Positions 14,680 through 34,503 of a stretch of DNA of 36,259 bases are shown piece by piece. The DNA comes from a virus. Where the stretch lies: the IMG/VR virus record IMGVR_UViG_3300017917_002974, positions 1 through 36,259 of that record; one strand, written 5' to 3'. Every line of letters begins with the position of its first letter. Position 1 is the first letter of the stretch. Below the pieces are notes generated by a model, which saw only the letters and a program-made list of their open reading frames with translations, made no database searches and was not told where the DNA came from. Both the position numbers and the translations under genes were made by a program.

Positions 14680-14845
14680 TATCATCCTTCTTAATAATTG
14701 TTCCAAACATATGAACCACAAAAGCTCCTACTGTGAGCCATAAACCATAAGTTCTTGTTTGACCAGATAATGTAATAATTACAATTACACCTCCAGATAT
14801 AGTCCACGCAAGAGCGTGAAGTTCTTTTAGTATTTTTTTTACCAT
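14669..14845 (-). CDS. Small membrane protein, 58 aa
   Basis: An ATG at 14845 overlaps the stop of the PA14 gene (TAATG) and is preceded by TAGGAGAAAATA. The product starts MVKKILKELHALAWTI and has two hydrophobic stretches (SGGVIVIITLSG and GLWLTVGAFVVHMFG), ending IIKKDDNEE. The stop at 14669 overlaps the ATG of the LPXTG gene by 11 bases. Two short helices with charged ends in the lysis region fit an additional holin-like or accessory membrane protein, perhaps helping secretion or display of its two surface-protein neighbours. Confidence 0.65.
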   Translation of the reverse strand: MVKKILKELHALAWTISGGVIVIITLSGQTRTYGLWLTVGAFVVHMFGTIIKKDDNEE

Positions 14846-16125
14846 TATTTTCTCCTAGATCGTCTGTTACTACGATCTTCATTTGAACCAGCATCTCCTG
14901 ATGGTCCACCGCCTCCCGATGGGCTACTGCTAGGGGCACTAGGAGTGCCTCCAGAGGGCATAGGAGCCGTTGTAAGCGTTGTTGTAAGGGCAGTTACAGC
15001 AATGACAGCCCTTCTTGTTTTTACATCTACATTTGATCCTGTAGGAACATACTCATCTAGGCCTTCTCCGAATATGTCAATCTCATCCTCAAATGCTTCT
15101 TTAACCTCTGCTGGTGCATCTGACATTGCCTCAACAAGCGCTGCTTCTTCTTGTGGTGAAAGTTCCGAAACTTCTATTTCTTGAAAAATTTCTTTTGCTT
15201 CTTCGCCAGTAATAGCATTTAAAATTTCTGGATTGCTGGATAGTTCTTTTGCCTCTTCAGAATCAACACCATTAGAAATAATGTTTTCAATAGCAGCAAC
15301 AATTTCTTCTTTTGTTAAATTTTCTGTATTTTTGATTAATTCAGAAACTTCTTTTTCTAATGTTTTAGGAACTTCTGCTGTAGTTGTTGTAGTTATTTCA
15401 GGAATCGTTGTCGTTGTAGTAGTTGTGCTTGTTGTAGTGGTCACTAATGTAGTTGAGGTTGTTGTTGGTTCAAGAGTTGTTGTTGTTTCTGGAACCGTTG
15501 TTGTTTCTGGGACTGTTGTTGTACTCGTAGTAGTGGTACTTGTAGTAGTGGTAGTTGTGGTAGTTGTCGTTGGTACAAAAGCTTGTCTTGTAAAAGCTGA
15601 TTCTGGAACAATTGCCCATTCCCCATTAACCAACCACCAAAGTTGAACCCAAGCTCCTCCTCCATTTTCATAAAACCAAAGCGTTATCTCTTTCGAAACT
15701 CCTGCTTCAAATGAAATAGGCTCAGAGACACTTCCTCCACCACCCTTATCCCACCAGTCATAAGTAATTTGTTGCCCATCTAAGTAGAGAATTGTCCCAT
15801 CGTCTGCTTGAGCCATAAATGAAATATCCTGTGATATTTCAGATGTTATAAAACCTTCATACTTAATTACGAAATCCTCATATAAATCAAGAACTGGTAT
15901 CTGATCAAAATAATGTTCTATTTTTGATGTTGTATAAGTGCCAAAAACTTCAGTTGTTGGAGGGACTGGAGGAGACGAATTAAAATCATTATTAGTGGTT
16001 AGATTATTGTAAACAGTAACAAAAAGACCCGGTTCAATATCTGCATTTGCAGGAGATGAGAAAAAGCCCAAAACAAGAACAGGGGTTATTATCCAAGAAC
16101 CTTTTCTAAACCTTAATCTTCTCAC
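14845..16125 (-). CDS. Secreted PA14-domain protein with Thr-rich linker
   Basis: This 426-residue protein begins with a signal peptide (basic MRRLRFRKGS, a hydrophobic core, then SSPANA before Asp29). Residues 30-185 look like a PA14 domain: VIKYEGFITSE, SFMAQADDGTILYLDGQQI and the ITLWFYENGGGAWVQLWW ending. PA14 domains usually bind carbohydrate. Residues 186-249 are almost only Thr with Val/Pro/Glu, followed by an acidic helical domain (250-370) and a Gly/Ser/Pro-rich stretch ending in basic RSNRRSRRK. No LPXTG motif is present. It is the first of two adjacent secreted surface-type proteins. Signal peptides are rare in phage tail proteins, so display on the host is likelier than virion assembly. 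Confidence 0.75.
   Translation of the reverse strand: MRRLRFRKGSWIITPVLVLGFFSSPANADIEPGLFVTVYNNLTTNNDFNSSPPVPPTTEVFGTYTTSKIEHYFDQIPVLDLYEDFVIKYEGFITSEISQDISFMAQADDGTILYLDGQQITYDWWDKGGGGSVSEPISFEAGVSKEITLWFYENGGGAWVQLWWLVNGEWAIVPESAFTRQAFVPTTTTTTTTTTSTTTTSTTTVPETTTVPETTTTLEPTTTSTTLVTTTTSTTTTTTTIPEITTTTTAEVPKTLEKEVSELIKNTENLTKEEIVAAIENIISNGVDSEEAKELSSNPEILNAITGEEAKEIFQEIEVSELSPQEEAALVEAMSDAPAEVKEAFEDEIDIFGEGLDEYVPTGSNVDVKTRRAVIAVTALTTTLTTAPMPSGGTPSAPSSSPSGGGGPSGDAGSNEDRSNRRSRRK
15379..15570 (-). repeat. Thr-codon low-complexity tract
   Basis: About 64 codons encode mostly threonine, with short VPETTT and LEPTTT interruptions. The opposite strand is accordingly GT/TTG-rich and gives a spurious Val-rich open frame. 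Such Thr linkers are common in surface proteins of Gram-positive actinobacteria, where they act as extended, often glycosylated stalks. Codon usage alternates ACA, ACT and ACC, so this is not a simple trinucleotide repeat. Confidence 0.8.
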
Positions 16126-17613: not shown

Positions 17614-18645
17614 TTACAGTGAACGCAACTTAACATTCTTACCGATTACATATGAATCAGCATTTTCGATGTTGCTTGCAACTCTCATGTACTGAGTGTA
17701 CTCAATTGTGTCGGTCTTTGGCTTGAACTGACGGTAAACAGTAATGTCACGGTGGATACCAATAACACGGTTGTTCGGGAAGGTCAACTCAACGAAACCA
17801 TGCGAACCGCTGGTGCCTGAGTAGTCACCTGCTGCTGCTTCTGGCATAAGAGGAACCTCAAGCAATGGAATACCAAATGGTGAGATACCAGTTGAACCTG
17901 GACCACCATTTGCTCGCATTGCGCCCTGCAAAAATGCCATGTCACCAACGGTTGATGCTGGTGATGGTGCGCCTGCTGTTGCTGGCGTTGCAGAGTTTGG
18001 ATTTCCAAGGCTGTAGATCGTATCTTGTACGAGTCCGGAACCAGAGAAGAATCTCAACTCATTTCTGCGCTGCAAATACTTTGTTGGCAAGTTACGAAGA
18101 ATACGGTCATATGTTGCTCTGGAAACATTGTTTCCTCCTTCGTCAACAACACGACCATTGCTTCGTGCAAGCTTGTTAAAACCATCAAGTGCCTTCAAAA
18201 GACCGTTGTTGGAAGATGTATTACCATTGATGAACAAATCGTCAAGGTCATTGGCTGTTTGACGAGCCATGATCTGAGCAATATGGTCTTCAAGGGATGC
18301 ACCCTCAATATTGTCCTCAAGTGACTCTGTTGAGATTGCCCAGTCAAGACGCAACTTAACTGTGCTCAAAGAGACCTTGGTGAATGTGACAGCGGCATTG
18401 GAACCAGTGTCTGTTGCTTCGGTTGCCTTTGAAAGCAAACGAGTACCAACGGAAACCTTGTCGATTTCCATTTGTGGTGTACGCATGCGAACGACTCTTG
18501 CGTTCTGCATTAATACGGACTGATCAATAACATAATCAAGGAAGCGGTTAGACTGTGCTGGCTTCATTAAGCCGCCAGAGTCATTACCTACTACGCTTGT
18601 TGTTACTTCATCAGCTTTCGATAGAATTTCTTCTTGTGATGCCAT
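17614..18645 (-). CDS. Major capsid protein (HK97 fold)
   Basis: This 343-residue protein starts MASQEEILSKADEVTTSVVG. It has HK97-fold features: KPAQSNRFLDYVIDQSVLM, a spine-helix region TESLEDNIEGASLEDHIAQI, ARQTANDLDDLFINGN and the C-terminal YTQYMRVASNIENADSYVIG. Length is typical for an HK97-type capsid without a large N-terminal delta domain, consistent with a separate scaffold. It lies immediately after the protease/scaffold polyprotein and has AGGAGGAGTAAAATAT upstream of the ATG. A hairpin terminator follows. It forms the capsid shell. Confidence 0.92.
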   Translation of the reverse strand: MASQEEILSKADEVTTSVVGNDSGGLMKPAQSNRFLDYVIDQSVLMQNARVVRMRTPQMEIDKVSVGTRLLSKATEATDTGSNAAVTFTKVSLSTVKLRLDWAISTESLEDNIEGASLEDHIAQIMARQTANDLDDLFINGNTSSNNGLLKALDGFNKLARSNGRVVDEGGNNVSRATYDRILRNLPTKYLQRRNELRFFSGSGLVQDTIYSLGNPNSATPATAGAPSPASTVGDMAFLQGAMRANGGPGSTGISPFGIPLLEVPLMPEAAAGDYSGTSGSHGFVELTFPNNRVIGIHRDITVYRQFKPKTDTIEYTQYMRVASNIENADSYVIGKNVKLRSL

Positions 18646-18663: not shown

Positions 18664-19023
18664 TTATGACTCATAACCCAAAACGCCAATGACGCTTTGT
18701 GGTAAATACATGTTGCCCCAGAAAGACTTGTCTTGAGACTTTGTGATGGTCTCTTCCTCTTCGTCTTCCTCTGGATCAACGCTCTTTTTGATAGCACCAG
18801 CGTTAGCAAACTTGGTAACTTGCTCTTCAGTTTCTGCGAGAGCTTTTTCTGCTGCATCTAATTTTTCTTGAAGTTCAGCGGAGCTGGCTTCAAATCCCTT
18901 TGTGATGGTGTCGATTTTTTCTTGAACAGATGCTTCAATCTCTTCTTTAATTGAAGTAGCGAAGGTATCCAGTTTTTCGTCAACCACAGCACCGAGGGCT
19001 TCTTTAAGGATTTCAATATCCAT
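18664..19023 (-). CDS. Nested in-frame scaffold protein
   Basis: An ATG at 19023 (codon 585) has AGGAGG at 19029-19034, five bases upstream. The 119-residue product starts MDIEILKEALGAVVDEKLDT and is largely predicted coiled coil (EEIEASVQEKIDTITKG, then SSAELQEKLDAAEKALAETE). It ends in an acidic stretch and GVLGYES. A scaffold nested at the 3' end of the protease gene is the lambda C/Nu3 arrangement. Scaffolds direct capsid protein assembly and are cut by the protease. Confidence 0.65.
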   Translation of the reverse strand: MDIEILKEALGAVVDEKLDTFATSIKEEIEASVQEKIDTITKGFEASSAELQEKLDAAEKALAETEEQVTKFANAGAIKKSVDPEEDEEEETITKSQDKSFWGNMYLPQSVIGVLGYES

Positions 19024-19785
19024 TTCTTCCTCCTGTGTGTTTTCAGTTACTTCAACTTCAGTTGAAGCATTTTCTTGAACATCCGGAACAAGCCAATTAA
19101 CCATTCTTTTAATTAGAGAAAGCTTGTTAATTTCTTGTTCATTCATGTTAAAGACCTTATCATAGTTTACATCATTTTGCAATGAATTGTCTTGCATTTT
19201 AAGCAATTCTGATTCTTCTTCCATTTTATTAATAGAAGCAAGAAGTTGATTAAGCATCATTGTCATAGAATCTTCTTCTTCTGAACCTTCAGATTCTTCT
19301 TCAACTTCTGTTTCTACTGATATTGTCTCATCAGAAGATAAAGTTGCGTTTAATTGCCAATGCAGTTTTTGATGCATATCAATACGACCTGCTAAATAGT
19401 CAGCAACACCTTGCTCGTTTTCTTTACTAGCAACATCAAATGCCATCTTCAAGACTTCAACATACGCACCATTTTTGTCATATAAATCAGCGGCAAGTCT
19501 TCTTGCATTTGTTGTATCACTTGCATCTTCAAAAGAAGCAGCATCTTCCATCTCTGAAAGAGTCAAAGGAAAACCACCGACTTTACGGATATTCTCTGCA
19601 AGTGGATCAACTGCTCCATATGTTTCTTCATAAATTTCACCAAAAAGTTCATGAAATTCACTAAAATCAATACCTTGCACATTCCAATGAGCTCGTTGTG
19701 CTGAAAAAGACAACACAACAGTATCTGACAAAACTTTCTGGAGGGCTTTGATTGTTGCAGGTTTAGCCTGAACACTCTTCTTCAT
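18664..19785 (-). CDS. Nested in-frame product: Dps-like domain plus scaffold
   Basis: An ATG at 19785 (codon 331 of the polyprotein) has AGGAGG at 19791-19796, five bases upstream. It would give a 373-residue protein starting MKKSVQAKPATIKALQ, exactly at the beginning of the Dps-like domain. That placement makes separate translation likely. Dps subunits form 12-mer cages that store iron and bind DNA. With the scaffold attached, this product could assemble inside the prohead. An additional ATG at 19905 has a weaker site. Confidence 0.55.
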   Translation of the reverse strand: MKKSVQAKPATIKALQKVLSDTVVLSFSAQRAHWNVQGIDFSEFHELFGEIYEETYGAVDPLAENIRKVGGFPLTLSEMEDAASFEDASDTTNARRLAADLYDKNGAYVEVLKMAFDVASKENEQGVADYLAGRIDMHQKLHWQLNATLSSDETISVETEVEEESEGSEEEDSMTMMLNQLLASINKMEEESELLKMQDNSLQNDVNYDKVFNMNEQEINKLSLIKRMVNWLVPDVQENASTEVEVTENTQEEEMDIEILKEALGAVVDEKLDTFATSIKEEIEASVQEKIDTITKGFEASSAELQEKLDAAEKALAETEEQVTKFANAGAIKKSVDPEEDEEEETITKSQDKSFWGNMYLPQSVIGVLGYES

Positions 19786-20775
19786 AGTTTCCTCCTTTTT
19801 CTTTTTCTTATTTGGAATTGTTGGAGTTGCAAAACGATTACCTTGCTCTGGGTTTTTAATTCCTGAACCCATGCCGGAGGCCGTCACCTCTCCTTCCTTC
19901 TTCATATTCTTCTCTTTAGTGTTCTGATATCTTTCAAGAAGTCTGCGACCTTTTGCAGCAAGCGCTGCAGCATCCTGCATATTTTGAGGAACAGGCTCTC
20001 CCCAAGCCGCAGCAGATAATGCCAATCTTGTTGGCTCACCATTTGGCTTCTTCATTGGGCCGGATGGATTAGTAAAAAATCTTGTTAAGAAAGAACCTTT
20101 TCTACGCATCTTTTCTGGCGTATCTGCTGCTCCTTTCACACCCGGCTTTAGGTTTGCACCCTCTGTCTGCTTAAAATGTCTACGACCTGCAGCAGTAAGA
20201 CCACCCTTGGGATCTTTAAGAGGCTGTTTTGCCTTTTCTAAATCAAAGTCAAGATCCTCGATTACATCTAGAATGTAATCAAGATTGCCATCGATATCCA
20301 TTTTTACAATATCAACAATTGCAAGCGCATTTGCTGGATTATCAACCAAACTCAACTCACCCAAAGTATATTTCTTAATAACATTGGCCGGTCTACCTCT
20401 AAACATCTTTTCAGTTGATTCAGCTTTTTCAACAATTTTTCCGCCAATAGAAAATGCTTTTAAAGTTCCATCAAGAATTTTTTCCCAAGTATTCTGGGCA
20501 CCTTTAGAAATATAAGCACTGACTTTAATAGCCTTGTACTTTTCTCCATCTTCACCTGTAATTTCTACAGGCTCATAACTGATAGCCTTACCTACAGCGA
20601 TAGGGGCATGCATCTCACGGATGTTGCCTCCCCAGTTCTTAAATGCCTCAAGAGATGCATTGAATTCAACAATATCTCCCGATTTGTCTATATTGTCAGC
20701 AGTAGCAATACCGCTTACAATTCTTTCCTCTTTTTTGATCATATCAATTGGGAAAGATAAATTAAAATTTTCCAT
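18664..20775 (-). CDS. Prohead protease / DUF6321-like / Dps-like / scaffold polyprotein
   Basis: This 703-residue protein has several parts in one frame. Residues 1-160 are an S78-type prohead protease: SGIATADNIDKSGDIVEF, H56 in EMHAPIAVG, S109 in LKAFSIGG and YTLGELSLVDNPANALAI. Residues 186-285 (GGLTAAGRRHFKQTEGANLK onward) resemble the DUF6321 domain of other phage proteins. Residues 335-490 look like a Dps/ferritin-like domain: AHWNVQGIDFSEFHELFGE with H363 and H375, then D390 and E394 in VDPLAENIRKVGG, closing DMHQKLHWQL. The usual Dps Asp after the second His is replaced by Gly. Residues 490-703 are acidic and coiled-coil, scaffold-like. It lies between an 87-aa gene and the capsid gene. 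Internal starts at 19785 and 19023 have strong ribosome binding sites. Confidence 0.85.
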   Translation of the reverse strand: MENFNLSFPIDMIKKEERIVSGIATADNIDKSGDIVEFNASLEAFKNWGGNIREMHAPIAVGKAISYEPVEITGEDGEKYKAIKVSAYISKGAQNTWEKILDGTLKAFSIGGKIVEKAESTEKMFRGRPANVIKKYTLGELSLVDNPANALAIVDIVKMDIDGNLDYILDVIEDLDFDLEKAKQPLKDPKGGLTAAGRRHFKQTEGANLKPGVKGAADTPEKMRRKGSFLTRFFTNPSGPMKKPNGEPTRLALSAAAWGEPVPQNMQDAAALAAKGRRLLERYQNTKEKNMKKEGEVTASGMGSGIKNPEQGNRFATPTIPNKKKKKEETMKKSVQAKPATIKALQKVLSDTVVLSFSAQRAHWNVQGIDFSEFHELFGEIYEETYGAVDPLAENIRKVGGFPLTLSEMEDAASFEDASDTTNARRLAADLYDKNGAYVEVLKMAFDVASKENEQGVADYLAGRIDMHQKLHWQLNATLSSDETISVETEVEEESEGSEEEDSMTMMLNQLLASINKMEEESELLKMQDNSLQNDVNYDKVFNMNEQEINKLSLIKRMVNWLVPDVQENASTEVEVTENTQEEEMDIEILKEALGAVVDEKLDTFATSIKEEIEASVQEKIDTITKGFEASSAELQEKLDAAEKALAETEEQVTKFANAGAIKKSVDPEEDEEEETITKSQDKSFWGNMYLPQSVIGVLGYES
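19029..19034 (-). promoter_or_regulatory. Internal ribosome binding site for nested scaffold
   Basis: AGGAGG at ideal spacing (AAGAA) before the in-frame ATG 19023, in a Glu-rich linker. It supports independent translation of the short scaffold from the polyprotein mRNA. Confidence 0.65.
19791..19796 (-). promoter_or_regulatory. Internal ribosome binding site for Dps-like product
   Basis: AGGAGG, spaced five bases (AAACT) from the in-frame ATG at 19785. It is as strong as the sites of stand-alone genes in this window. It overlaps codons for a Lys/Glu linker (KKKKKKEET), so the linker could encode it by chance, but the position exactly at a domain boundary argues for use. Confidence 0.6.
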
Positions 20776-21081: not shown

Positions 21082-22707
21082 TTAATTTCCTCCTTGTGTA
21101 GAATTGTCTACATTTTCGCCAGAATCTTGATTCTGACCTCTCTCTGCTTGATCTCCACTTTCTCTTGAGCCAGTTGGTTCTGAACCAGAATCTGCTCTTG
21201 ATTTTGGTGGATTACTTGCAGCATTATTGGAATTACCAACTGGTGCTCCAGCGGATTCATCCTTTTTAACCTTTGTTGGGTAAGGCAAAACCTCATCTCC
21301 ACCAGTTTTTTCTGGAAGACCGATCTTTGCACGAACTTCGTTTGGACTTACGACTTCTGTTCTTAAATATCTATCGTAAATTCTTGATTCCATATCCTCG
21401 TCAAGCAAGTCAATCTTCTTTAATTTAAATTGAAGCATGTCAGTAAATTCACTAAGTAGTCTGTTAATCTTTTTTTCAATTACTGCTTGATCTGGACCAA
21501 TAACTTGAATCTTAAATGTTTTATCTGCATCTCTAGAGACAGCTAGGTTTGCGTTATCATAGACACCGACCTTTGGTGCTGGGACTCTATTTGCAATAAG
21601 AATTTCATCACGATTAGACTTTCTATATTTATCAAAAGAGGCATCCTGAATACCGGCTTCAAGTTTTTCAAACTTAATATCTGAATCGCTTCCAATGCTT
21701 GCAGGAATTGGAACTACGAGTGTTCCATGATTTCTGCCTTTAACTTCTGTTCTAAAATAATTAACAAGTTCTAACTTTGACTTATTACTTAATTTAGCAC
21801 CCTTAAGAATGATTGCATAACGAGGAATAGCTTTGTTTTCAAAGTAATCAATGTTATATTCTTTTGCAAATTTATCTCCAATAATTGCTGCTGCAGCTGA
21901 CACTGCTGGCGGAATTCCATAGTATGTACTATTTGGAGAATACATTTTAAAATGAATGATTTCGTTTGGTGATGGATCACCGTTAATAGGATCTTCCATT
22001 TCTAAATCTTGGAAATTTCTGAAGAAAACAGCTTGAATTTTATTAGCTCTTGATAACTGAACGAAGCCATCACGCTTTCTTCTTACACGAACCATCGTTG
22101 CTGGAATATGACCGATGTAGCCAATTTTGCCAGCATTATTTCTTCCGACCTCAAGGTAACCATTTCCAACTGTCAGACAATCTTGCCATACACGAATCAT
22201 TGTTTCAATAAGTGTTTCTTCAACATTGAAACTTTCAAACAATTCATCAAGTTCTTCACGAAGATCTTGAAGCTCTTTTCTTGTTCTTTCAAGTTTTGCT
22301 GGATTATCTTGGGCTTTTTCAATCTTTCTTCTAGACTTTAATGTTTCAACAAACTCATAACCAAGACCGACTGTATTCATAACTCTTGCATTAATTGACG
22401 CATAATGGATAGCGCTTTGATCGTAGAGTTTTGCAAGGTTATCCAAGTCATATGGAGGATTTACAATATCCCATAAAGAATAGCCATTGATAACTTCTGG
22501 GTCCAAATATTTTGACTTGGTACCATCTTCACCTTCATGTCTTTTTTGAAGCCTCATAGCTTTTCTCTTCATTTTTGGAGAAAGGCTATCTATTTTAATC
22601 ATAGAAAATGGATCTATAGATTCTTCTTTTGAATTAATTGAGATATATGAAATATCCTCAATTTCTTCAACAGCATCGTTCTCTACATGGGTCATACGAT
22701 TATCCAA
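21082..22707 (-). CDS. Portal protein
   Basis: This 541-residue protein shows the portal pattern. It has a variable acidic N-terminus, then GYSLWDIVNPPYDLDNLAKL, LETMIRVWQDCLTVGNGYLEV, GYIGHIPATMVRVRRK, IIHFKMYSPNSTYYGIPP, and the stem/crown region with GPDQAVIEKKINRLLSEF. The Asn/Pro/Ser/Gly-rich tail is probably disordered. The start is a TTG at 22707, supported by AAGAGGTAATTG eight bases upstream; the first ATG (22695) is too far from that site. The portal forms the dodecameric ring at one capsid vertex through which DNA passes. Terminase, normally just upstream, is not found here. Confidence 0.88.
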   Translation of the reverse strand: MDNRMTHVENDAVEEIEDISYISINSKEESIDPFSMIKIDSLSPKMKRKAMRLQKRHEGEDGTKSKYLDPEVINGYSLWDIVNPPYDLDNLAKLYDQSAIHYASINARVMNTVGLGYEFVETLKSRRKIEKAQDNPAKLERTRKELQDLREELDELFESFNVEETLIETMIRVWQDCLTVGNGYLEVGRNNAGKIGYIGHIPATMVRVRRKRDGFVQLSRANKIQAVFFRNFQDLEMEDPINGDPSPNEIIHFKMYSPNSTYYGIPPAVSAAAAIIGDKFAKEYNIDYFENKAIPRYAIILKGAKLSNKSKLELVNYFRTEVKGRNHGTLVVPIPASIGSDSDIKFEKLEAGIQDASFDKYRKSNRDEILIANRVPAPKVGVYDNANLAVSRDADKTFKIQVIGPDQAVIEKKINRLLSEFTDMLQFKLKKIDLLDEDMESRIYDRYLRTEVVSPNEVRAKIGLPEKTGGDEVLPYPTKVKKDESAGAPVGNSNNAASNPPKSRADSGSEPTGSRESGDQAERGQNQDSGENVDNSTQGGN

Positions 22708-28501: not shown

Positions 28502-29485
28502 ATGCCTGTAAATCCATGCTCAGAAAACGGTCAGCCCGGCTTTAAATGGGGAGATAGCGGTAAATGCTATCTCTATACTCGCGGCGATGAAAAATCAATG
28601 GGAGAGGCAAAGAGAAAAGCGACTATTCAAGGTATTGCTACTGGTGAATATGATGCCAAAAAAGATGAAGATCTTGAAGGTATTGACAGCGTTGTTAAGT
28701 CATTGAAAGAATGGTTTAGAGAGCAATGGGTTGATATATCTCGGCCAAAGCAAGGAGGCGGCTTTGAGCCATGCGGAAGAAGCGATGCTAGTACAGGTAA
28801 GTATCCCAAATGTGTCCCAGCATCTAGAGCTGCCCGAATGACTCCTGAGCAAATTGCATCAGCAGTTAGAAGAAAGAGAAGAGCAGAATCTACTCAAAAT
28901 AGAGATGGCAAAAAGCCAATATATGTCTCCACAGATAAGGAAAAAATGGAAAAAGCAAATGTACCTACTAATCCAGAACTTTATGCTAGAGTAAAAGCCG
29001 AAGCTAAAGCTAAATTTGATGTATACCCCTCAGCATATGCAAATGCATGGTTAGTTCGTGAATACAAAAAAAGGGGTGGAGGATATAGAACTATGAAAGA
29101 AAATGTTAATAAGGTCGCAGAAGACTTGGCAGAGCCAGAGGCAGCACTTGCCGAAGCTCTTGTTATGGTCGCTGAAAGATTTGGTCCTTTCGATCAGGAA
29201 GGAACCGGAATTTGGGTTGAATATGAAACAGCAGAGGAGAATGACGAAAAATCAATCGGAGTTCATTGTCACAACTGTGTTTTGTATGCAGGCGAAGGTG
29301 TCTGTAAGATTTTAAGCCAAAAAGTGGAGCATTATGGCAAATGCCGTTTTGCTCTGATTCCTGATGGTCTCGTTACTCCAGAAATGGAAGATGAAGACGA
29401 AATGGAAGAAGAGGATGACGATGAAAAAGATTCAGTGTCAACTCTTATCTCTATGCTTAGAGATTTATTTAACAAGGAGAAATAG
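28502..29485 (+). CDS. Multidomain phage protein with DUF5872-like and four-Cys domains
   Basis: This 327-residue protein has several short modules. Residues 4-50: two Cys in PCSENGQPGFKWGDSGKCY, then EAKRKATIQGIATGEY, a linker common in phage head-assembly polyproteins. Residues 71-130: WFREQWVDISRPKQGGGF, then a Cys pair (C91, C104) and a basic helix (SAVRRKRRAES). Residues 161-196: DUF5872-like, AKFDVYPSAYANAWLVREYK. Residues 256-281: C256, C259, C268 and C281, a HiPIP-like four-Cys cluster. The end is acidic and then helical. In other phages such modules are fused to prohead protease genes; here they form a separate plus-strand gene. Function unknown; DNA or metal binding is plausible. 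Confidence 0.7.
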   Translation: MPVNPCSENGQPGFKWGDSGKCYLYTRGDEKSMGEAKRKATIQGIATGEYDAKKDEDLEGIDSVVKSLKEWFREQWVDISRPKQGGGFEPCGRSDASTGKYPKCVPASRAARMTPEQIASAVRRKRRAESTQNRDGKKPIYVSTDKEKMEKANVPTNPELYARVKAEAKAKFDVYPSAYANAWLVREYKKRGGGYRTMKENVNKVAEDLAEPEAALAEALVMVAERFGPFDQEGTGIWVEYETAEENDEKSIGVHCHNCVLYAGEGVCKILSQKVEHYGKCRFALIPDGLVTPEMEDEDEMEEEDDDEKDSVSTLISMLRDLFNKEK

Positions 29486-31268: not shown

Positions 31269-31339
31269 AAGAAATATTAACATTCATTATGGCAGGATGT
31301 TTGGTCGGAATTTTATTAATTTGGGTTACAGGTTCATGA
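31265..31339 (+). CDS. Tiny membrane peptide, 24 aa
   Basis: ATG 31265 overlaps the Nmad1-like stop (ATGA), and its own stop overlaps the ATG of the Ntn-hydrolase gene in the same way. The product, MKEILTFIMAGCLVGILLIW plus VTGS, is one membrane helix. The double overlap suggests translational coupling rather than chance. It could act as a small membrane regulator, or mainly carry ribosomes to the next gene. Confidence 0.5.
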   Translation: MKEILTFIMAGCLVGILLIWVTGS

Positions 31340-31944
31340 CTACAATTGTTGCTATTCAGGGAGATGACTACTGCGTTGTAGGTACGGACTCTAGAGTTTC
31401 ATCATTTGATGAAAGTGGATTTGCTTATCAAATAACCACTCTTGGCACAGGATCATGCAAGATTGCTCAAAAAGGTCGATATTTGCTAGGAGCCGCTGGA
31501 GATGTAAGAGCCATTAATATCCTGCACCATGCCTTTAATCCACCAATTCCGCCATTCAAGACTGGTGGAGAGCAACTGGATGAATTCATAACAACAAAAT
31601 TTATACCAAACCTTCAGGTGTGTTTTGAAAATACTGGTTATGCAATGCCAGACTTGGCAGAAGATAAGACACATATATCAGAGCATTCTTCTACAATCTT
31701 AGTAGCTGTAAATGGTGTAATATATATTATTGATGGTGACTACTCTTGGACTTCTGATCGGACTGGTGTGTACGCTATTGGTACCGGCTCTTCATACGCT
31801 TTGGGTGCAATACAAGCCATTACAGGCGGGAAACAAATCACAGTTCAAAAATCTAAAGCTGCTATTAATAAGGCTCTTTCGATAACATCAAAATTTGATC
31901 CATACACAGGTTCACCATTCCAACTTTTTGTACAGGAAAGATAA
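31336..31944 (+). CDS. Proteasome/HslV-like Ntn-hydrolase
   Basis: The start is ATG 31336 (ATGA overlap); an upstream ATG at 31297 is inside the small membrane gene. The 202-residue protein begins MTTIVAIQGDDYCVVGTDSR, placing Thr2 as the N-terminal nucleophile after Met removal. D18, and K42 in GSCKIAQKGR, match the proteasome/HslV Asp17 and Lys33 positions, with a small spacing difference. LLGAAGDVRA and IGTGSSYALGAIQAITG follow as in the family. It could be a protease, or a non-proteolytic Ntn enzyme. No ATPase partner is visible in the window. Confidence 0.75.
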   Translation: MTTIVAIQGDDYCVVGTDSRVSSFDESGFAYQITTLGTGSCKIAQKGRYLLGAAGDVRAINILHHAFNPPIPPFKTGGEQLDEFITTKFIPNLQVCFENTGYAMPDLAEDKTHISEHSSTILVAVNGVIYIIDGDYSWTSDRTGVYAIGTGSSYALGAIQAITGGKQITVQKSKAAINKALSITSKFDPYTGSPFQLFVQER

Positions 31945-33089: not shown

Positions 33090-33272
33090 ATGAATATGGA
33101 TGAATACAAAAGAAGAATCGATAACGCTCATACTCTCACAGGAGTACCTTCTTATTGGGAAGAACTTCAAGAAATGACAAAAGAGCGTGATAAATATAAA
33201 GAGTTGTTTGAAAAAGCCATCTCAATGCTCTTACCAAGTGATGTAGGGATTTTATATCAAGATGGAGAATAA
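33090..33272 (+). CDS. Small coiled-coil protein between oxygenases
   Basis: This 60-residue protein starts MNMDEYKRRIDNAHTLTGVP. It has a helical heptad-rich middle (YWEELQEMTKERDKYKELFE) and an uncharged tail ending ILYQDGE. AAAGGATCTTGAT lies before the ATG. It lies between the 2OG oxygenase and the P450 and ends one base before the P450 start. Similar short coiled-coil proteins occur throughout the right end. Confidence 0.6.
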   Translation: MNMDEYKRRIDNAHTLTGVPSYWEELQEMTKERDKYKELFEKAISMLLPSDVGILYQDGE

Positions 33273-33273
33273 G

Positions 33274-34503
33274 ATGTTGGTTTCAGAGTTAGAAATGCCA
33301 TTTATTGAAGCGCATCTTCTTGTTGTTGATACAGAAACTCCTTTTGAAACAAGAAAGGAACAAATTGACAAATTGATAGAAATATCTAAAGATTTTTGGA
33401 TATGTAAATCTATAATAGGTTATTACATCGTAAAGAATTCAGATACTACAAATATTCTTAGAGATAAAAGATGGCATAGTGGTCTACATGTATTGCAGTC
33501 TCTTAGAGATAAGCATAATCCAGAGGTTGTAGCAAAAAGAAATAATACTCTTAGCGCAATGGATGGAGAAGAACATGCACATATTCGACATATAGCAGCA
33601 CCAGCATTTTCTCAGTCAGCTGCTATGGATCAAAAGGATTTTTCATATTCCTACGCTAAGAGCCTATTGGAAAATATTGTTAATAATGGCTATGCAGACT
33701 TCATGGAATATTTCTGCAATATTTATCCAATAACTGTTCTTTGCAATTCTGTTGGGCTTCCAAAAGAAGATTGGGAAAAATTTATAAAATGGGGCGCAGT
33801 ATTTGCAAGTCCAGTTTCTAAAAACTTTGCAATTGATATTAATGAATTGAAGAATGCTGAAAATGAATTTTATAAATATATTACAAAATTAGCCAATGAT
33901 AGAAGAGTTAATCCTAAAGATGACTTTATTTCAAAACTTGTATCACCAATGTATGGAGAAAAGGGATTGACTGATCCTCAAGTATTTTTATTAATTGCAA
34001 CCATGATTAGTGGAGGAATAGAAACTCTTGTTAGTCATCTTGGCATGATGTTTGTATATCTTTGTGAAAACCCAGATATTTATAAAAAGATTAAAGATAA
34101 TAGGGATGAGATTTCAGATGCGGTTGTAGAAATTACAAGACTCACATCTTCAATTAGAGGAACTCTAAGAATTGCTTCTGAAGATATTGAGTACAGAGGC
34201 GTTACTTTCCCTAAAGGGACTTTTGTTTTTACAAGTATCGCTTCATCCAATCAAGATCAAACAGTTTATGGAAATGCAGATGAATTCCGTTTTGGAAGAA
34301 ATCATAGTAAGGACTTGTCTTTTGGTGCCGGAATGCACTACTGCATGGGCGCTCACTTAGCGAAGGTTGAAATGACAGAGGCATTTAGAGCAGTGATTGA
34401 TACATTTGATAGAATTGAATTAGATAGTGTGCAATATAGACCATCAAACTCTGGTATATTTGGACCAGAAATATTAAATATTAAATACAAAAGGGCGGTT
34501 TAA
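33274..34503 (+). CDS. Cytochrome P450
   Basis: The start is ATG 33274 (MLVSELEMPFIEAHLL), preceded by GGAGAATAAG; another ATG four codons upstream lacks such a site. The 409-residue protein is a complete soluble P450. It has C-helix region DGEEHAHIRHIAAPAFS, I-helix SGGIETLVSH with the acid-alcohol pair (E250, T251), ExxR as EITR (286-289), and the haem loop FGAGMHYCMG (350-359) with C357 as thiolate ligand. No membrane anchor is present, as in bacterial class I enzymes. It needs ferredoxin and a reductase, none seen here, so host partners are likely. The substrate is unknown. Length matches bacterial CYPs and all key residues are intact. Confidence 0.95.
   Translation: MLVSELEMPFIEAHLLVVDTETPFETRKEQIDKLIEISKDFWICKSIIGYYIVKNSDTTNILRDKRWHSGLHVLQSLRDKHNPEVVAKRNNTLSAMDGEEHAHIRHIAAPAFSQSAAMDQKDFSYSYAKSLLENIVNNGYADFMEYFCNIYPITVLCNSVGLPKEDWEKFIKWGAVFASPVSKNFAIDINELKNAENEFYKYITKLANDRRVNPKDDFISKLVSPMYGEKGLTDPQVFLLIATMISGGIETLVSHLGMMFVYLCENPDIYKKIKDNRDEISDAVVEITRLTSSIRGTLRIASEDIEYRGVTFPKGTFVFTSIASSNQDQTVYGNADEFRFGRNHSKDLSFGAGMHYCMGAHLAKVEMTEAFRAVIDTFDRIELDSVQYRPSNSGIFGPEILNIKYKRAV

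Follow-up and report, generated by a model that had tools for sequence, protein, structure and literature searches.

The window, i.e. the whole 36,259-nucleotide stretch of viral DNA analysed, carries on its minus strand (18664–20775) a frame of 703 codons plus a stop codon, which encodes a protease, a DUF6321 module, a Dps domain and a coiled-coil scaffold. The gene is flanked by genes of head assembly. The portal gene (21082–22707, minus strand; Pfam E 2e-32) is located upstream, and the gene for an HK97-type major capsid protein (17614–18645, minus strand; Pfam Phage_capsid E 2e-8, PHROG 1623 E 1e-80) lies directly downstream.

The protease domain spans residues 1–165 (20281–20775), and residues 3–159 match a head maturation protease family (PHROG 9427, E 5e-53). 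The Pfam S78 profile scores 17.9 bits on this domain, which is under the 21-bit cut-off. His56 and Ser109, which occupy invariant alignment columns among relatives, are candidate catalytic residues. The DUF6321 module (residues 186–260, 19996–20220) is basic (+9) and matches PF19846 over residues 187–258 (E 2e-28). It is followed by a linker (residues 261–330, 19786–19995) that is predicted to be disordered from about residue 287, is lysine-rich at its end and is a hot spot for the first of two putative internal translation starts. The Dps domain (residues 331–485, 19321–19785) matches the Pfam Ferritin profile over residues 342–483 (E 4e-15), as well as PHROG 3636 (E 6e-19). An acidic linker, modelled mostly with low confidence (residues 486–584, 19024–19320), leads to the C-terminal coiled coil (residues 585–703, 18667–19023). 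A long helix is predicted at residues 587–659, starting beside the internal start at codon 585, and the coiled coil is predicted to be a scaffold from its position and this helix. The model of the full-length protein, used for domain limits only, is poor overall (pLDDT 59); protease and Dps regions are distinct in it, and the linkers between them have low confidence. The preliminary description had placed an S78-type protease, a DUF6321-like module, a Dps domain and a scaffold in one frame, and each of these parts is present, the S78 profile itself remaining below threshold. An assembly chimera is ruled out by 18 further unique genes with the identical architecture.

The best matches of residues 332–481 among solved structures, obtained using phmmer, are all Dps proteins (1n1q, E 2e-15). 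Structure prediction of this region, proposed earlier as a check, returned a Dps fold. The AlphaFold model of residues 331–487, built from an alignment of 37 viral sequences, has a pLDDT of 93.6, and its closest solved folds are Dps/MrgA proteins (TM 0.85–0.93), the top matches all being Dps. The model features a four-helix bundle (helices 9–35, 41–68, 94–121 and 125–150, domain numbering), with a short helix (76–82) in the loop between helices 2 and 3, which is the helix order of Dps.

The ferroxidase ligands follow the pattern H-x11-H-x14-D-x3-E, and the residues involved (H363, H375, D390 and E394; codons 363–394, 19594–19689) are invariant across 37 diverse relatives. A further acidic ligand is known from the Dps of Listeria (D47) and of E. 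coli (D67). The equivalent position, which we treated as a secondary trait that does not define Dps, is G379 in the window and is unconserved among relatives, being mostly glycine, alanine or serine. The earlier statement that most ferroxidase-site residues are kept is borne out, and a Dps with most, though not all, of the usual ligands is a fair description of the domain. In sequence, the two halves of the ferroxidase site between subunits are both conserved (the domain was modelled as a monomer), and thus the dimer contacts are probably kept. The Dps domain is acidic (−13). Its N-terminal tail has a charge of about +6 to +10 in most members of the window's group, is acidic (−7 to −15) in a second family described below, and is neutral to acidic elsewhere. 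Since the tail is basic in one group but acidic in another, DNA binding does not appear to be the conserved property.

Codons 331 (19783–19785) and 585 (19021–19023) are in-frame ATGs, and the AGGAGG motifs reported to lie five bases upstream of each were confirmed at 19791–19796 and 19029–19034. Conservation of the starts was analysed in 65 unique full-length genes, pooled from whole-protein, Dps-directed and protease-directed scans, by applying a single Shine-Dalgarno criterion at all positions; expected counts were derived from synonymous-codon shuffling. Because related genes are counted individually here, independent events are fewer than the ratios suggest. A start with an AGGAG-type Shine-Dalgarno sequence is present at the scaffold boundary in 65/65 genes (10.6 expected), in the linker before the Dps or scaffold in 43/65 (9.1 expected), within 16 codons 5′ of the Dps in 10 of the 19 Dps-bearing genes (1.0 expected), and elsewhere in the frame in 7/65, with no excess over the 10.3 expected.

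The nested scaffold start proposed at the scaffold boundary is thus kept in every gene of the set. In phage lambda, C and Nu3 form a nested protease–scaffold gene, in which an in-frame internal start yields the scaffold alone. The gene plan in the window is similar, as a single frame encodes protease and scaffold and a conserved in-frame start with a Shine-Dalgarno sequence marks the scaffold boundary. It differs from the lambda gene in having an additional internal start and inserted Dps and DUF6321 modules.

The start preceding the Dps varies more. Its position shifts with the edge of the Dps (codon −3, −6, −8, −9 or −14), and it usually consists of AAGGAG with a six-base spacer. In the relative L061, a natural split is observed, where Dps and scaffold form their own ORF, the GTG of which overlaps the protease stop codon. 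A similar split in L098 was not used, as it depends on a one-base indel relative to the 99.95%-identical L097 and is probably an assembly error. The linker start is also present in Dps-less relatives. In L001, the nearest Dps-bearing relative of the window, CTT replaces the ATG; in L002, the Shine-Dalgarno sequence is mutated; in L053/L054 and L072–L080, the sole start outside the scaffold boundary falls 3′ of the Dps (in L053/L054, 3918–6125, the first AGGAGG-ATG is at residue 518, with numbering from the beginning of the protease). In all of these genes, the Dps would consequently be made only within the full-length protein. The presence of the linker start in Dps-less genes and its loss in L001 suggest that, in most cases, the internal start was there before the Dps was inserted behind it. 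In our reading, this start would be an old feature of the gene, behind which the Dps was mostly inserted directly. The nested Dps–scaffold form put forward in the preliminary description stands for most Dps-bearing lineages, which have a start just 5′ of the Dps, and is in line with the split gene and the second family. It does not hold as a general rule, because the linker start is not specific to the Dps and is missing, mutated or located after the Dps in the genes listed above. The predicted nested Dps–scaffold product is common, not universal.

A scan of viral contigs yielded 47 relatives of the whole protein, and most of the full-length ones lack the Dps segment only. For instance, L004 has no Dps, and its flanks are up to 95% identical to the window's gene. 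The Dps is present in 19/65 unique full-length genes, a proportion biased by the search route; in the protease-directed scan alone, it is found on 10/80 contigs kept. The fusion is therefore not unique to the window, and the search for it in related phages, suggested earlier, recovered the 18 further genes mentioned above. On the protease tree, the presence of the Dps changes at least 9 times, and at least 5 of the changes are forced by well-supported branches, although these counts do not separate gain from loss. The Dps sequences of L080 and L073 differ by a dS of 0.02 despite diverged flanks (protease dS 1.4, scaffold dS 1.5), which indicates that the Dps was exchanged on its own. The scaffolds of the window and L004 are nearly identical, and their proteases differ by a dS of 1.2. 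Between the window and L001, the dN/dS of the Dps is 0.035 at a dS of 1.1, indicative of strong purifying selection. As the Dps is gained, lost and swapped with the rest of the gene undisturbed, head building does not need it. The lysine-rich linker is also found in genes without a Dps. No isolate carrying the Dps-bearing fusion was found in the phage collection searched, and strict search patterns detected no relative in 84,980 species genomes searched with the Dps alignment. Sampled cellular Dps proteins encoded on plasmids are at most ~34% identical.

The architecture in the window is one among several on the 80 Dps-bearing contigs obtained in the Dps-directed scan, the search patterns of which favoured relatives of the query and may have missed other phage Dps proteins. 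In a second group, a protein of 550–690 aa, encoded between the portal and major capsid genes, carries the Dps in its middle. Its N-terminal part weakly matches a head maturation protease family, and a profile comparison based on shallow alignments detected no relation to the window's protease (probability 0.9%). An internal AGGAG-ATG start is present in 46/46 unique genes of this second family (6.2 expected), and the 4 genes that have a Dps all carry it 3′ of this start. In five further layouts (1–2 representatives each), the Dps is separate or differently fused, and its gene lies either between the portal, protease and capsid genes or adjacent to them. The Dps is thus within the head gene block in all seven layouts examined; several neighbour genes in the second and third groups gave few Pfam matches. 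In a tree to be read with caution for its long outgroup branches, the head-block Dps proteins group as a single clade (support 97/99) that excludes the sampled cellular Dps as well as the stand-alone Dps of S-SRM01 and BUCT695. Two contigs show additional features. In L061 (413–2919), DUF6321 is replaced behind the protease by a different module, and the Dps is followed by a further one; the slots on either side of the Dps seem open to inserts of various kinds. L086 (3–4049) encodes, just 5′ of a Dps gene, a MuF-like protein of 1349 aa that includes an ADP-ribosyltransferase-like region, as though genes for several head-borne proteins were grouped.

Stand-alone Dps proteins of tailed phages have been described as host-protective in Gratiaviridae (PMC8008677) and Lactobacillus phages (PMC6669764). 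These, as well as those of S-SRM01 and BUCT695, belong to the same Dps family and are encoded by separate genes, outside the head block where checked. In contrast, the window's Dps is fused and lies between the portal and capsid genes. The capsid maturation protease of Streptomyces phages (Stanwilliamsviridae, for example IchabodCrane gp48) has a homologous protease domain (~50% identity) and is likewise followed by the major capsid gene; it differs in length (430 aa) and has no DUF6321 match and no Dps. The same Dps domain is found in the predicted structures of long proteins of uncultured Caudovirales in UniProt, such as A0A6J5N5R9 (679 aa) and A0A6J7WPK9 (763 aa). Entries of this kind carry automatic names, some of them "Prohead protease", and no description of nested starts or of a recurring plan was found for them. 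In phage SPN3US, head ejection proteins are packed with the genome, some being processed by the prohead protease, the C-terminal propeptide of which has been proposed to target it to the core (PMC7411985). SPN3US is a precedent for head-packed, protease-processed proteins and differs in having no Dps. We know of no nested Dps–scaffold gene in this phage. A fusion of Dps or ferritin-like domains with a prohead protease or scaffold is undescribed in the literature searched, which was mostly outside subscription journals. Nested protease–scaffold genes are already known; what sets this system apart is the recurrent, unexpected Dps cargo.

The reading to which we incline, and which we regard as just probable, is that the gene serves head assembly and carries the Dps as an optional cargo, which would ride the scaffold into the prohead and handle Fe(II) and peroxide there. 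Three nested products are expected: the full-length protein (703 aa), a Dps–scaffold protein from codon 331 (373 aa) and the scaffold from codon 585 (119 aa). The first would be the source of the protease and the last the bulk scaffold, while the start at codon 331 would lift the copy number of the Dps over that of the protease. Judging from gene position and by analogy with other phages, the shared scaffold end would co-assemble with the capsid protein and carry protease and Dps into the prohead. Once the shell is assembled, the protease would cut the linkers and trim the scaffold, and Dps subunits, as a dodecamer or a smaller assembly, would remain with the packaged DNA or leave with it on ejection. 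By oxidising Fe(II) with peroxide, the usual Dps reaction (PMC7762939), they would spare the genome Fenton damage, either inside the particle or on entry. We infer from the genes that this Dps would be packaged, form a cage, act on iron and be ejected. The near-constancy of the four iron ligands, set against the variable tail charge, favours Fe(II)/peroxide chemistry over DNA condensation. The cargo reading is weakened by the ferroxidase ligand missing throughout at the D47/D67 position and by the absence of the codon 331 start in some lineages. Moreover, a 12-mer bearing protease and scaffold arms might be crowded, which also counts against it.

Protection of the host is a rather unlikely alternative, in which the Dps, freed by the head protease or made from the codon 331 start, would counter oxidative stress in the infected cell, the scaffold fusion being a convenient site of expression. 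This role has been proposed for the stand-alone phage Dps proteins cited above (PMC8008677, PMC6669764), and genes located among structural genes are usually expressed late. However, fusion or proximity to head proteins in all seven layouts, unlike the placement of the S-SRM01 and BUCT695 genes, and the distinct clade of head-block Dps argue against it. The role of the Dps could also be structural, its 12-fold self-assembly clustering scaffold and protease arms as a nucleus inside the prohead, with incidental iron chemistry. Its location, flanked by protease and scaffold in the full-length protein and within the scaffold half in the second family, would suit this role, as would the intersubunit site and probable dimer contacts. 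We nevertheless find it unlikely, given that most relatives assemble without a Dps, some with 95%-identical flanks, that the Dps is a separate gene in other layouts, and that a purely structural role does not need four invariant iron ligands.

The internal AGGAGG-ATG motifs might be by-products of lysine- and glutamate-rich coding, only the full-length protein and its protease fragments being made. AAGGAG is indeed one way of encoding Lys-Glu, and L001 and L002 have lost the linker start, which is found in Dps-less genes as well. Shuffling, however, gives 9–11 genes against the 43 and 65 observed, other in-frame starts are not in excess, and both the split gene L061 and the 46/46 starts of the second family speak for translation from such sites, making this explanation quite improbable. 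A histone-like role, in which a Dps with a lysine-rich tail would bind and compact DNA in the head, seems most improbable. The basic tail in most of the window's group and the adjoining basic DUF6321 module are compatible with it, but tails of the second family are acidic and those of other groups neutral to acidic, the net charge of the Dps domain is negative and the lysine-rich linker occurs without a Dps too.

The recurrence of the Dps in distantly related phages suggests that some of them load an anti-oxidant protein into heads during assembly. A broader version of the cargo reading, which we hold tentatively as plausible but short of probable, is that a mobile Dps module, repeatedly placed behind the internal start of the scaffold half in unrelated lineages, provides a ferroxidase cage that is packed with the genome and possibly delivered to the host. 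Such a virion would correspond to a ferritin-loaded encapsulin that contains DNA. Encapsulins with ferritin-like cargo are HK97-type shells enclosing a ferritin-superfamily protein (PMC5012862, PMC6668986), and they resemble in outline the arrangement proposed here. They differ in being cellular compartments, not virions, and in having a non-Dps cargo targeted by a recognition sequence and not by fusion to a scaffold. If the Dps does enter proheads, tailed phages would have a general route for loading an enzyme into the head through a scaffold plug-in, comparable to the loading of ferritin-like cargo into the related shell of encapsulins. Some virions would then carry their own defence against iron-driven oxidative damage, and the gene would be a natural design for loading phage heads with enzymes. 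Since many phages form matched pairs that differ in having or lacking the Dps module, the question can be tested directly.

Other genes in the window were also noted. On the minus strand, a gene in the structural block (14845–16125) encodes a weak PA14-like domain (E 0.009, below cut-off) followed by long threonine-rich linkers. Three genes are located on the plus strand. A 215-aa protein (31297–31944) matches the Pfam Proteasome-subunit family above cut-off (residues 148–210, E 5e-6), with no sequence match among solved structures; a phage-encoded proteasome-like protein would be unusual. A 327-aa protein (28502–29485) matches DUF5872 (E 5e-14), a domain that by eye resembles the DUF6321 of the protease gene. 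A cytochrome P450 of 413 aa (33262–34503; Pfam E 2e-24) is also encoded by the phage.
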